From NCBI RefSeq assembly GCF_037478005.1, contig NZ_CP144164.1:2480001-2544000 (forward strand): a stretch of DNA of 64,000 nucleotides, given 5' to 3'. Origin of the DNA: Alteromonas sp. M12. GTDB taxonomy: Bacteria > Pseudomonadota > Gammaproteobacteria > Enterobacterales > Alteromonadaceae. Both the position numbers and the translations under genes were made by a program. Under the pieces are notes generated by a model. It did no database searches. It saw only the letters and a program-made list of their open reading frames with translations, and was not told where the DNA came from. Positions 42,193 to 47,645 of this stretch are shown here, piece by piece; within the stretch, counting starts at the first letter, position 1, and each line of letters opens with the position of its first letter.

Positions 42193-43500
42193 TTAAGCTC
42201 TTAACCTTTTGTGTTGGTTATTCTGTTCATATATTTCGACTTTATTAAGTTCGCTTAACATATCACTTGTTACCAACACAACTCCTCCCTGACTTATTCG
42301 AAATCCTCTGGCTTTGTCTAACTTAGTGTCAATGCCTATTTCAAAACCATCAGGTATCTCACAATCTGCGTCGATAACAGCTCGGTGAATTTTAACATTT
42401 TTACCAATTTTCACATGGGGAAGAATTACCGAATCTTCCACAAAGCTGTTATTTTCTATGTGCACATCAGAAAACAATAGAGATTGTTTGACAATAGCGC
42501 CCGATATTATGCATCCACCTGAAACATTGGAATTAACGGCATAACCACTTTGTTTTTCTTCATCGTAAATAAATTTAGCAGGGGGAGATTGTTTCTGATA
42601 AGTCCATATTGGCCAATCTTTATCGTATAAATCAATATCTGGCGTTGCTGTAACTAAATCCATATTTGCCTGCCAAAATGAATCTAAAGTGCCCACATCT
42701 CGCCAATAAGTTGCCTCATTTGGGTTTTCTGAGCGGAATACAAACGCTTCTACGTGATTATTTTTTATCACATTCGGTATAATATCATGACCAAAGTCGT
42801 GCTGAGACTCGTTATTTTTTGCATCTTCAATTAGCTTTTCAATCAAAAACTCAGTGCTAAATACGTAATTTCCCATAGAGGCTAAAGTTGAACCTGGTTT
42901 ATTTTTCATAACCCAAGGATTAATTGGTTTTTCTTGAAACTCAGTAATTCTGCTATTTTGATCAACGGACATTACGCCGAATTTACCTGCGGCTTCTTCA
43001 ATTGGCATTTCAATACAAGATATGGTCATATCTGCTCCACTTTGTGCGTGTTGAGCAAGCATGTCTCCGTAATCCATTTTGTAAATATGATCACCAGATA
43101 ATACAACCACATATTTTGGGGCGTTTTCACGGATAAACCGAATATTTTGATAAAGTGCATCAGCGGTACCGGCATACCAACTTGATGAGTATTGTTGAGA
43201 CGCAGGAAGTAATTCTACAAATTCCCCCAACTCTCTATTCAAATGTCCCCAACCTCTGGCCAGATGTCGTAATAAGCTATAGGCCTTATATTGTGTCATT
43301 ACACCTATTTTTCTAATTCCTGAATTAACACAATTCGACAACGGGAAATCTATAATTCTAAACTTACCGCCAAAATGAACAGCCGGTTTTGCCTGATGTT
43401 GTGTCAATTCACATAAACGACTTCCCTTCCCTCCAGCTAAAACCAGAGCTAACGTATCCCGTGTTAAATGACTTACATACCGACTATTTGAAATTACCAT
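42193..43500 (-). CDS. glgC: Glucose-1-phosphate adenylyltransferase
   Basis: A 435-residue ADP-glucose pyrophosphorylase, which makes ADP-glucose for glycogen. The nucleotidyl motif is [17 protein letters not shown], followed by [20 protein letters not shown]. The substrate motifs are [29 protein letters not shown] and FQEKP. A left-handed beta-helix ([37 protein letters not shown]) closes the protein. It stands alone, without glgA, glgB or glgP in this window. It is divergent from nothing immediate: 540 bp of structured intergenic DNA separate it from fixJ, with the FixJ-like motif about 170 bp upstream of its start. Confidence 0.95.
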
Positions 43501-43669
43501 CTGCCTTCCTTTATTTCTAAAAATATAGTTAACGCTCGGATTTTGAAAAATGTTGTTAACATCTGTAGAAGATATAGTGTTAATTTTTTAAGGGTGTGTC
43601 GTAACGCCAATAAAACTAAGTTTACGTTTCACATCAGGATTGGGTTATTGGAGATTTCTCGTAATTAAT

Positions 43670-43684
43670 TGTGGGAAATACGTA
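43670..43684 (+). promoter_or_regulatory. Putative FixJ-like site, copy B
   Basis: TGTGGGAAATACGTA, 170 bp upstream of the glgC start (which is on the minus strand). It shares 13 of 15 positions with copy A at 41383. Read from the minus strand it is TACGTATTTCCCACA, similar to FixJ-type sites. The assignment is inference. Confidence 0.35.
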
Positions 43685-43723
43685 CTTTTGAATCATGTTT
43701 TTGTGGGGATTATTTTTTACCAA

Positions 43724-43744
43724 CCGTTTTTTGTCAAAAAACGG
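43724..43744. repeat. Perfect 9-bp inverted repeat
   Basis: CCGTTTTTT-GTC-AAAAAACGG, a perfect stem with a 3-base loop in the glgC-fixJ intergenic region. No T-run follows on either strand, so a simple terminator is unlikely. Confidence 0.6.
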
Positions 43745-43922
43745 CTTATTAAAGCCAAAACATCCGAAAATTAAAGACAATTTGCGCAATTGGGAATTTA
43801 TCTAATGTAATCATGGAATTAAAAACGACAGCTAAATAGTTGATTTAGTTTTACGATATCTATTAGGGATTTCCACAGGTTAGTCTCGCGCATTTAGCGG
43901 TAACCCCCAATATTCTGATTAA

Positions 43923-44038
43923 GCGATAGTAGTTAAGCTATTCCTGTGTATACATATACACAGCAACTACCTGAAACAAAGGTTTCAGTTCCTCTTTGGA
44001 GTTCATCACATCCAACCATAGATGGACTCCATTTTTTT
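43923..44038 (+). ncRNA. Candidate small RNA with three hairpins and a terminator
   Basis: Plus-strand unit of about 115 nt between glgC and fixJ, both of which lie on the minus strand. Hairpin 1 is closed by GTAGTT (43929-43934) with AACTAC (43965-43970) and has an inner perfect stem CTGTGTAT-ACAT-ATACACAG (43944-43963). Hairpin 2 is CTGAAAC-AAAG-GTTTCAG (43971-43988). A single-stranded TTCCTCTT follows. Hairpin 3 is TGGAGTTCATC with GATGGACTCCA (43997-44031) and is followed by seven T. The stem contains one T-G pair that is stable only as RNA read from the plus strand; on the minus strand it becomes an A-C mismatch and there is no T-run. A weak -10 (TATTCT, 43911-43916) precedes. No coding frame explains it. 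Confidence 0.55.
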
Positions 44039-44040
44039 AT

Positions 44041-44649
44041 TTACTGTTCCGACAGTATTTTTATTCGCACTAGTTGCGCCAAGGTTTTTGCGCCAAGTTT
44101 TTCCATAACGTGGGAGCGATGAACCTCAACGGTTCGCTCACTGATATTTAACTCAGACGCAATCATTTTATTCATTGCCCCTTCGGTAACTAAATTGAAT
44201 ACTTCCTTTTCCCGATTAGACAGAAGACTGATTTTTCTGACTTCCTTCTGCTTATTATCAATACAGGCATTTTGTTTGGAGTTTAACGCTAGGGCTTCAT
44301 TGATTCGGTCAATTAAATTTTGATCATTGAAGGGTTTTCGGATGAAGTCAATAGCACCGTTTCGCATAGCTTCAACTGCCATCGGTATATCACCATGGCC
44401 TGTGATAAAAATGATAGGTAACAAACTATTTAGTTCTTTTAGCTTTAATTGTAATTCTAAACCACTCATTTTCGGCATTCTAATATCGAGTACGATGCAC
44501 CCTTTCATGTCGTCATTGAACTCTTTCAAAAACTCCTGGCCATTCACAAAGCTTTTAGCATTAAGTCCAATCGATGCAAGCAACATTTCCATTCCATCAC
44601 GGATAGCTTCGTCATCGTCGATGATATATACCGTTTGCTGATCAGTCAT
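44041..44649 (-). CDS. FixJ-like response regulator
   Basis: A 202-residue response regulator. The receiver domain covers about residues 7-120 with the acidic pair DDD at 11-13, phospho-acceptor Asp55 (CIVLDIRMPK) and the switch residues FITGHGD and RKPF. The C-terminal LuxR/FixJ-type helix-turn-helix contains LSNREKEVFNLVTEGAMNKM and ISERTVEVHRSHVMEKLGAK. It overlaps the sensor kinase gene by 8 bp. In rhizobia FixJ turns on fixK and nifA under low oxygen; here the targets are unknown, but glgC, the GNAT gene and the candidate small RNA are the closest. Confidence 0.92.
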   Translation of the reverse strand: MTDQQTVYIIDDDEAIRDGMEMLLASIGLNAKSFVNGQEFLKEFNDDMKGCIVLDIRMPKMSGLELQLKLKELNSLLPIIFITGHGDIPMAVEAMRNGAIDFIRKPFNDQNLIDRINEALALNSKQNACIDNKQKEVRKISLLSNREKEVFNLVTEGAMNKMIASELNISERTVEVHRSHVMEKLGAKTLAQLVRIKILSEQ

Positions 44650-47047
44650 GTGTTTTTCCTCCTGAAATCGGTAGCGTAAAATAAAAAACGGTCCCGTATG
44701 GTTTATTATCTTTGAACATTAAGTGTCCACCATGTTCTTCAATAATTGATTTGGAAATTGACAACCCAATCCCCATTCCATTCTTTTTGGTTGTGCTAAA
44801 TGGCGTATAAAGTTCGTCTTTTAACTTTTGAGATAAACCACAACCTGTATCTTCTATCGAAATCTGAAACGTGTTTGCTTCGCTTTGAGACGCTCTAATT
44901 GTTAATACATTACCATTTTTAAAGTCAATTGCTTGCATTGATTCCATGGCGTTTCGCAATAAATTCAGTATCACTTGTTGGATCTGTACTCGGTCAACAA
45001 AGACAGCAACATGCTGGTCACCCGTTTCTACCTGAATCAATATTTCATGTAAGCGTGAAATAGGTTCAATTAATTTTATGACCTCTTCGATTAATATATT
45101 GCTATCAACCGCTTCTTTTTGACTATCGCCTTTTCTAGTCATTATTTGCACACGCTCCAAAACACTGCCAGCACGAAGTGATTGTTGAGTTAATTTATCT
45201 AATAACTCAGGGAGCATTTCGAAATTTTGTTTTTCGCACATATTTTTAGCAGTTGCTGAAAATAATGCTATTGCGGTCAGTGGTTGATTAATTTCATGGG
45301 CAACTGCAACGGCCATTTCCCCTAACGCATTTAAGCGATCAAAGTGAGCTAATTGTTCGGTTAATCGACGAGTTTTATCTTCTGAAGCTATTTGCTCGGT
45401 AATATCTCGAATTAAACCAACAAATACTCTGCCTTCGGGATTAACAATTTCACTGACCGATAAATGAATAGGAAACATTGAACCATCTTTGCGCTTGGCC
45501 GTTAACACACGTCCAGTTCCAATAATATGAGTTTCATTTGTTTCTAAGTACTTAGCTAAGTACTGATCATGTTGCTCACTTTGACGCTGAGGCATTAAAA
45601 TTTTTACGTTTTTGTCTTTGATTTCTTTAAAAGAGTAGCCAAACATCTTGAGGGCAGCTTTATTGAAACTTTTTATATTGCCCTTTTGGTCGATGGTAAT
45701 AACCGCCTCAACCACTGAATTAACAATTGCCTCAGAAAATGCGTGGCTATGTATCAAGTCAGCTTGTGCTTGTTTAATAGAAGTTATATCGGTTATGAAC
45801 CCCTCCAATATAAAGTCTTCTGTTAAATGGGAACGTACCGGCTCTCCTCTTTCCCAAACATACTTAATTTCATTGTTTTTTGTCACTATCCGATATTCAA
45901 ATTCAAAGCGTCGTTGTTGCTTTACTGCCTTGTCGACTAATTTCACAATCCGTTCATAGTCATCGGGATGAATGATTTGTCCCCAAATAATGCTATCTCT
46001 TGCGAATTCATCTTTAGAATATCCAGTTAATTCTTCACATTCCTCGTTTACCAATATTATTGGCCATCCTTTTTCGTTAAAGGATTGATATGCCATCCCT
46101 GGTAACATTTTTAAAAAATGCTCAGTTTTTTTACGATCATCCTTTATGTATTTTTCTTTTCTGCGTGACAGCAAAACAGCATAAAAAGCAAGTGCCACAA
46201 AAAAGCTGAGCAGTACACCGAGCAAGGTTAAAATTTTGATTATTCGATAATGTTTGTGGGCTAAAAACTCATTGGTAGGTGCAATATTAATTTGCCAATT
46301 TTGGCCTTCAAGTGTAAATGCTGCGTGTTTATTCCATCGAGTATCAATTAAATTACTAGTGAGTGTATTTGGATAGATACGCAGACCATCTACAGTCAAC
46401 AGTATTTGATGGTCAGACAATAAATAAGAAGGCAATACTTCTTTAAAATAGGTGTTAAAAAGAAACACGCTGCCGATAAAACCTTGTAATTGTTTTGTGC
46501 TGCCAAGACCTTTAAAAACCGGTGCGTATATTCCGAAACCGGATTTTCCATCCACTGAAGAAATAGGAATTGTGAATGCTGAATGAGTGCTATTTTGAGC
46601 TTTCACGGCTGCAGATAACGACGCTGAAACAGCATTTAAATCAATATTTAATGCTATTTCGTTCTGTTCAACGGGCAACACTTTTTTTACTTGAAAAGTA
46701 CTGTCAACCCAGCTAATTGCTTGATAACCCTGTTGCGTATCATACAAAGTTTGTGCAATTAAATTCCAATCGACATCGGATAAATTATTCGATATTTTGG
46801 ATAGTTGAGTAAATTCTGTCAATGACACAATTCGTGTGTTTATATCTTCCTCTAACAATATTTTAATTTTGTTAGCGGTAGTTTGAGTTACATTGTCGAT
46901 ATAAGCACGTTCTTGCGTCTCAATGTACAAAATTAGAAAAGCGATTAGTGCCGAAGTAACTGCGCCAGCGATAACCGCATAAATAAGAATAGCGATCTGT
47001 GGAGAAAAACTAATACGCCATTTGTTGGTGTTTATTTTCTTTTCCAT
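44642..47047 (-). CDS. FixL-like PAS sensor histidine kinase with extracytoplasmic CHASE-like domain
   Basis: An 801-residue membrane kinase. Two membrane segments (about 17-42 and 270-295) enclose a periplasmic sensor of ~225 residues resembling a CHASE domain. Two PAS domains follow: one at about 305-425 (HFLKMLPGMAYQ; EEC-E-ELTGYSKDEF) and a FixL-type PAS at about 435-550. The latter holds His493 (SEQHDQYLAKY) and Arg513 (IIGTGRVLTAKR), matching the proximal heme His and distal Arg of rhizobial FixL. The kinase core has AHEINQPLT (His584), NLLRNAMES, DTGCGL and GMGIGLSIS. It likely senses oxygen through heme and another signal through CHASE, then phosphorylates the adjacent FixJ-like protein. 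Heme binding is inferred from the conserved residues. Confidence 0.9.
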   Translation of the reverse strand: MEKKINTNKWRISFSPQIAILIYAVIAGAVTSALIAFLILYIETQERAYIDNVTQTTANKIKILLEEDINTRIVSLTEFTQLSKISNNLSDVDWNLIAQTLYDTQQGYQAISWVDSTFQVKKVLPVEQNEIALNIDLNAVSASLSAAVKAQNSTHSAFTIPISSVDGKSGFGIYAPVFKGLGSTKQLQGFIGSVFLFNTYFKEVLPSYLLSDHQILLTVDGLRIYPNTLTSNLIDTRWNKHAAFTLEGQNWQINIAPTNEFLAHKHYRIIKILTLLGVLLSFFVALAFYAVLLSRRKEKYIKDDRKKTEHFLKMLPGMAYQSFNEKGWPIILVNEECEELTGYSKDEFARDSIIWGQIIHPDDYERIVKLVDKAVKQQRRFEFEYRIVTKNNEIKYVWERGEPVRSHLTEDFILEGFITDITSIKQAQADLIHSHAFSEAIVNSVVEAVITIDQKGNIKSFNKAALKMFGYSFKEIKDKNVKILMPQRQSEQHDQYLAKYLETNETHIIGTGRVLTAKRKDGSMFPIHLSVSEIVNPEGRVFVGLIRDITEQIASEDKTRRLTEQLAHFDRLNALGEMAVAVAHEINQPLTAIALFSATAKNMCEKQNFEMLPELLDKLTQQSLRAGSVLERVQIMTRKGDSQKEAVDSNILIEEVIKLIEPISRLHEILIQVETGDQHVAVFVDRVQIQQVILNLLRNAMESMQAIDFKNGNVLTIRASQSEANTFQISIEDTGCGLSQKLKDELYTPFSTTKKNGMGIGLSISKSIIEEHGGHLMFKDNKPYGTVFYFTLPISGGKTHD

Positions 47048-47222: not shown

Positions 47223-47645
47223 CTAATCCATTAAAGTGTGTTTTTTTACCGATTCAGAACTAGGCACTTTCAACCCAAGATTTTCTAAATAAGACAAGGC
47301 ATCGTTAAGATCATCAAATCGTTGCGGGGTAAATGATACGTCTTCGAAAAAGGGCATCAACTCTTGTCCTTGGGTTGAAGATTTAGTAACCCAACTTTCA
47401 CCGATTTGATTTCTTCGTTTCAAGGATATTTTACTTTTAAATGGAGATTCAAACACTTCTTGTGGCATCGTCCAATTAGTCATGTCGACGCATATCCCCC
47501 AATCACGGCCTTTTTTCTTTCCTGTTAATAGTGACAATTCACTAATATAAGAAAGATCAGCCTGAACGGTCCAAAGCCCTTTTAAAACAATAAAAAGAAT
47601 ATCTCCCATGGGAGTGATTTTAAAAGCGGCTGCATCATCACTCAT
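47223..47645 (-). CDS. Hypothetical protein, STAS/SpoIIAA-like
   Basis: A 140-residue soluble protein with no signal or membrane segment. The pattern of alternating strands and helices (FKITPMGDILFIVLKGLW; WGICVDMTNW; FDDLNDALSYLENLG) is like that of SpoIIAA/STAS-like proteins, and the C-terminal segment resembles the last helix of such domains. I cannot name a family with certainty. It lies 175 bp upstream of the FixL-like gene on the same strand and may be transcribed independently. A regulatory role is possible by likeness only. Confidence 0.6.
   Translation of the reverse strand: MSDDAAAFKITPMGDILFIVLKGLWTVQADLSYISELSLLTGKKKGRDWGICVDMTNWTMPQEVFESPFKSKISLKRRNQIGESWVTKSSTQGQELMPFFEDVSFTPQRFDDLNDALSYLENLGLKVPSSESVKKHTLMD

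Follow-up and report, generated by a model that had tools for sequence, protein, structure and literature searches.

A candidate FixJ-linked small RNA gene beside a FixLJ-type two-component system of marine gammaproteobacteria

FnrS of enterobacteria is a small RNA (sRNA) output of the oxygen regulator FNR, and NarL is a LuxR-type regulator like FixJ. In Pseudomonas aeruginosa, the anaerobically induced sRNA PaiI depends on NarXL, according to the available text of its description (PMC5703892), and sRNAs under anaerobic regulators are thus already known. The literature joining FixJ or FixLJ with sRNAs describes, in the excerpts available, no FixJ-controlled sRNA; one paper suggests, in its accessible part, an sRNA role in the fix regulon. 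No literature was found on Aliiglaciecola together with sRNAs.

Here we describe a locus in the window (the whole 64-kb stretch of DNA analysed) where we consider it probable that 43946-44038 on the plus strand is an sRNA gene which travels with a FixLJ-type two-component system, is activated by FixJ and acts by base pairing in trans. The features are as follows.

43863..43878, minus strand: distal regulator box CTGTGGAAATCCCTAA, predicted FixJ-type site (20.4 bits, 0/500 shuffles as good)
43895..43910, plus strand: proximal regulator box TAGCGGTAACCCCCAA, predicted FixJ-type site centred at about -43, the most conserved alignment block
43934..43939, plus strand: putative -10 hexamer TAAGCT (conservation 0.68 at 43930-43939)
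43946..44038, plus strand: predicted sRNA of about 93 nt (z -5.71, 0/200 shuffles as good)
43944..43963, plus strand: hairpin 1, 43944-43951 with 43956-43963, 8 bp, loop ACAT (read directly)
43971..43988, plus strand: hairpin 2, 43971-43977 with 43982-43988, 7 bp (read directly and folded)
43997..44038, plus strand: intrinsic terminator with a 13-nt loop containing CCAACC, then T7 (model R1)
44041..44649, minus strand: FixJ-type response regulator with receiver and GerE/LuxR domains (Pfam, NCBIfam), predicted activator of the sRNA
44642..47047, minus strand: FixL-type sensor kinase with CHASE, PAS, HisKA and HATPase domains

The predicted arrangement resembles that of PaiI in placing an sRNA under a two-component system, but PaiI is under NarL and not FixJ, and the likeness is one of description in the available text, without sequence comparison. 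FnrS differs in that its regulator belongs to another family than FixJ, and in the window no Rfam family attained its gathering score. With the rhizobial FixLJ system the locus shares a receiver-GerE regulator and a PAS kinase whose best NCBIfam models are FixJ and FixL, as well as heme-PAS similarity; it differs in proteins scoring under the NCBIfam cut-offs, in the CHASE domain and in the adjoining sRNA candidate. The FixJ model matched with 233.5 bits (equivalog cut-off 255) and the FixL model with 365 bits (equivalog cut-off 850). In the heme PAS domain of FixL, the proximal His and the distal Arg bind heme and ligand. The second PAS domain of the window's FixL had the FixL heme PAS 1dp6 as its best match (E 3.9e-28), with HD.Y (His-Asp-x-Tyr) and IIG.GR (IIGxGR) aligned, and among seven FixL orthologues read, the heme His was kept in six and the Arg in all seven. 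The heme-PAS match and the kept residues make an oxygen signal likely for the window's FixL. Paraglaciecola arctica encoded Tyr in place of the heme His (locus L027, about residue 491, second PAS) in a genome that keeps the sRNA, and its FixL signal may differ from that of the others. Upstream of fixL, 47223-47645 encoded a 140-aa protein without Pfam or NCBIfam match, and a similar frame was found upstream of fixL in locus L026. Inverted repeats at 43724-43757 are terminator-like on the minus strand, and the fixLJ transcript may stop there, before glgC.

The segment from which the analysis started, 43923..44038, is a plus-strand intergenic stretch of 116 nt on the strand opposite to both flanking genes, the minus-strand fixJ (end at 44041) and glgC (start at 43500). 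Direct reading bore out the three stems and T7 run (44032-44038) which an earlier note had described here, and the plus strand folded at -34.9 kcal/mol, compared with -16.8 on average for shuffles (z -5.78, 0/200 as good). The terminator stem (43997-44007 with 44021-44031) was also as described, with 11 bp and a single T-G pair at 44003/44025. The minus strand of the segment had a z of -3.70 (1/200 shuffles as good), but without a T-run. A simple terminator scan of the window listed hairpin 2 and not the terminator at 43997..44038, because its 13-nt loop exceeds the scan's loop limit of 8. The 5' end of the sRNA probably lies near 43946, as judged from the promoter, and its 3' end at the terminator; the RNA would therefore be about 93 nt long, and the start of a transcript of about 110 nt proposed before was moved accordingly. 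Of the nested hairpin 1, the 8-bp inner stem stands, although its first two bases precede the predicted start. The outer stem (GTAGTT 43929-43934 with AACTAC 43965-43970, read directly) is in doubt: it is unused in the minimum-energy plus-strand fold, by eye absent from the nearest relative G003, and with a start near 43946 its GTAGTT half would lie outside the RNA.

A BLAST search of the segment against 98 genomes, own genome included, gave only one convincing match beyond the own genome, in G003 (E 1.4e-21), which belongs to the same genus as the window's genome; the next best match had an E of 0.0065. Nothing useful was gained with the P. arctica copy as BLAST query. In a FixJ protein search the closest named record was Aliiglaciecola lipolytica. 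The same terminator was found 3' of fixJ in P. arctica, a Paraglaciecola metagenome-assembled genome and Glaciecola sp. 33A, with CCAACC in the loop of the two Paraglaciecola copies and CCAAGC in Glaciecola. A covariance model (R1) was built from five terminators and searched against 395 genomes of the family under the stricter filter settings of Infernal, by which some weak matches are lost. At E 0.01, 13 of these genomes matched in 14 places. The eight best all carried the match directly 3' of fixJ, with 6 to 184 bases between it and the FixJ match; five of them had built the model and one (G205) is of the window's species. G344 and G322 count as independent matches, because neither is in R1 or of the window's species. 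Five matches (G276, G015, G156, G253 and G169; E 5.5e-4 to 0.0099) were set aside, since by eye they look like ordinary terminators without a box. At E 0.001, R1 matched 4 of 22 genomes in the genus of P. arctica and 2 of 13 in the genus of G182, one of the latter being the weak G276. Among 394 genomes drawn from the order the only match at E 1e-4 was the own genome. We regard the RNA as a credible candidate for an sRNA family not yet catalogued in Rfam, with a scattered occurrence in a single bacterial family.

The terminator occurred beside genes for closely related FixJ proteins. FixJ matches at E 1e-55 occurred in 34 of the 395 genomes, and by our own cut of a best FixJ match at least 66% identical 12 genomes qualified, eight of which had the R1 terminator directly 3' of fixJ. 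In G301, R1 gave a weak match in the same position (20.7 bits, E 0.11), which is not among the matches at E 0.001. For G302, G042 and G319 no RNA was found in the 1.5-kb flanks with R1, nor by eye downstream of fixJ. At 18 loci with FixJ 45-58% identical (L121-L138) there was no R1 match up to E 5. The window, G003 and P. arctica had glgC beyond the RNA, and L030 and L031 had a ZIP transporter gene there; since this neighbour varies, the RNA goes with fixLJ and not with glgC. Of the suggestion that the RNA belongs with both its neighbours, the tie to FixJ was thus upheld by the terminator beside fixJ and the boxes, and the tie to glgC was not supported.

This neighbourhood might also indicate a mainly cis-acting RNA that faces the fixJ transcript at its 3' end and governs either decay of the fixJ mRNA or read-through to the next gene. 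The RNA lies downstream of and opposite fixJ in all eight linked genomes, and the window's T-run stops 2 bases short of the last base of fixJ. However, five linked genomes outside Aliiglaciecola have the RNA 150 to 184 bases past the FixJ match, and its loop and promoter are conserved even at a distance from fixJ. A second copy in G322 (L152:1345-1541; G322 C1:2716282), 586 kb from the fixJ-linked one, has the same proximal box; by Pfam it is preceded by a short-chain-dehydrogenase fragment and followed by a Na+/H+ antiporter gene. No fixJ was found within 1.5 kb on either side of this copy, and a 48% FixJ-like match lay 35 kb away. We therefore consider a mainly cis-acting RNA unlikely.

Nine copies from eight genomes were aligned (A4, which replaced the early alignments A1 and A2). 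Conservation came in blocks, namely distal box, proximal box, -10-like hexamer, middle and terminator, with lower identity between them. Hairpins 1 and 2 were common only to the two Aliiglaciecola genomes. Hairpin 2 was retained in G003 with an altered loop, P. arctica had a different 7-bp second hairpin, and the innermost pair of hairpin 1 was broken in the same-species strain L025. Five of the nine predicted transcripts folded well (z -3.06 to -5.71), and four folded no better than shuffles (z -0.69 to +0.51). A three-hairpin layout can therefore not be taken as a family trait. In the terminator stem 85.9% of cells were paired versus 25-48% in slid controls, and two pairs were changed on both sides. 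This covariation is suggestive only and unproven, because 171 of 500 pair shuffles reached the observed pairing; the covariance model suggested in the earlier note thus recovered a recurring terminator without proof of covariation. CCAACC was intact in the terminator loop of six of the nine copies, and several copies outside Aliiglaciecola shared an A-rich TCAAAATAAAA-like middle. The linker TTCCTCTT, which by direct reading sits 3' of hairpin 2 and before the terminator, had been proposed to pair with ribosome binding sites. It was absent from most of the nine copies, TTCCTC was not general, and the proposal is not supported.

The same alignment bears on the possibility that the segment holds a small-protein gene, with a short frame running through it in several relatives. 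ATG frames of 30 and 37 codons were present in G182 and G344, and in another frame similar peptide ends were seen in the window, one copy of G322 (G322a) and G372. The frame of the window's terminator, however, had stops within the last 27 codons in five of the nine copies (G003, the nearest relative, as well as G333, G301, G344 and G182), and no start codon was common to the copies. A small-protein gene is thus very improbable.

Upstream of the predicted RNA, the 16-bp proximal box reached a mean pairwise identity of up to 0.82 in the nine-copy alignment, with the window's box by eye the most diverged of the nine. About 32 bp further upstream, the distal box (conservation 0.66-0.68) was present in seven of nine copies. 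A matrix built from the nine proximal boxes alone gave the window's distal box, which is inverted, its 20.4 bits. In six further copies 0 to 4 of 300 shuffles scored as well as the distal box, and those of G003 (43/300) and the second copy of G322 (64/300) were not significant. The -10-like hexamer had T at position 6 in all nine copies and T at position 1 in seven. Published FixJ sites include GTAGTTTCCC, GTAMGTAG and TAAGTAATTTCCCTTA, and the footprints of Sinorhizobium meliloti FixJ extend from -69 to -44 and from -57 to -31, as given in the available text (PMC4999443); the accessible part of a Rhodopseudomonas palustris FixJ paper gives a GTACGTAG site (PMC13327599). A start near 43946 was chosen because it puts the proximal box at about -43, within the range of these rhizobial footprints. 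A well conserved, TAATAT-like hexamer within the proximal box or on its border was also considered as -10 and, as a matter of judgement, rejected because of the S. meliloti footprint positions and the second conserved hexamer about 25-30 bp downstream. The box matrix matched the S. meliloti site TAAGTAATTTCCCTTA weakly (406/5000 shuffles as good), so the assignment of the boxes to FixJ rests on genomic association.

This association extended to genomes without detected RNA: two of three with high FixJ identity (G042 and G319) carried a box at the fixLJ locus. In G319 it lay beside fixJ (24.4 bits, 0/500 shuffles as good), and in Psychrosphaera (the G042 locus, L029:2132-2147) in the gap between fixL and a divergent aldehyde-dehydrogenase gene (18.6 bits, 0/500). 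A weaker box occupied the corresponding fixL/aldehyde-dehydrogenase gap in Pseudoalteromonas TB64 (L028:2448-2463; 10.0 bits, 13/500). In P. arctica (G333), an acetate-kinase gene (Pfam) had a box about 118 bases before it, at L158:1500-1515 (16.5 bits, 0/500), and is a possible FixJ target. The matrix was not significant downstream of fixJ in G302 (41/500) and G042 (423/500) or before fixL in the window (382/500). Across 11 genomes the box pattern with at most two mismatches matched 41 times versus 32 for the reversed pattern (6 versus 5 in the own genome), so most of these matches are probably chance. glgC was tried as a FixJ target via an upstream TGTGGGAAATACGTA block, FixJ-like by eye, and rejected on the matrix (245, 168 and 167 of 500 shuffles as good in three species). 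A block at 43640-43685 before glgC was by eye similar in G003, without significant box-matrix match.

Boxes and hairpin could also be no more than a terminator with an upstream regulatory region, in which the boxes serve the divergent glgC or ZIP gene and the hairpin stops antisense transcription. In the window, 446 bases separate the start of the divergent gene from that of the predicted RNA, and in G319 the box has fixJ on one side and, on the other, a divergent gene for a membrane protein (by eye ZIP-like), with no detected RNA. Yet the 360 bases before glgC held no significant box (245/500 shuffles as good), the -10-like block and blocks within the transcript were conserved, and the second copy of G322 kept box and terminator together at another locus. 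We regard this explanation as quite unlikely, and an sRNA that is FixJ-activated and base-pairing appears most likely from the sequences compared.

Neither in the window nor in the loci of eight relatives did any Rfam family attain its gathering score, in agreement with the earlier note, which had matched the RNA to no known family. Among the Rfam matches below threshold, ar15 (RF02345), which we take to be AbcR, scored highest near the segment; it covered hairpin 2, linker and terminator with 18.8 bits against a gathering score of 40, and McaS (RF00115) scored 17.8 bits against 42, so that the RNA is a member of neither. CsrA-sequestering RNAs of the CsrB/RsmZ type carry many GGA motifs in hairpin loops. 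By eye, the 93-nt transcript has two GGA motifs, both in the terminator stem, and is not of this type. Aln1a-c of Alteromonas macleodii are described as CsrB/RsmX-like in the available text of PMC5864184. The host genome encoded one Hfq gene (E 1.6e-29). The complement of 11 bases of the loop had one other exact place in the own genome, and because this is the non-coding strand of a 497-codon frame, no target emerged. Of the idea of an Hfq-type trans-acting sRNA, the candidate gene of its own on the plus strand is supported, with fold, terminator and promoter-like blocks and without the three-hairpin layout; a role for Hfq is putative.

Taken together, a recurring terminator, conserved boxes and linkage to fixJ were found for an RNA of no Rfam family. 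We propose that the signal read by FixL is probably oxygen or a related ligand of heme and that phosphorylated FixJ would bind at about -43 and about -75, to one box or to both, and thereby switch on transcription of an RNA ending at its own terminator. The RNA would most likely work by base pairing in trans, probably aided by Hfq, and would reach its targets through its middle part, the exposed CCAACC terminator loop, or both. It would then form the post-transcriptional arm of the FixLJ response. More tentatively, and with slightly less than even confidence, we suggest that a FixLJ-type oxygen sensor and a dedicated sRNA make up a co-inherited module, duplicated in one species, in which the output of FixJ is partly post-transcriptional and replaces or accompanies the rhizobial FixK cascade. 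A starting point for the regulon is offered by the boxes close to genes for acetate kinase and aldehyde dehydrogenase. If true, a FixJ-sRNA module in marine gammaproteobacteria would represent a testable post-transcriptional arm for low-oxygen metabolism.
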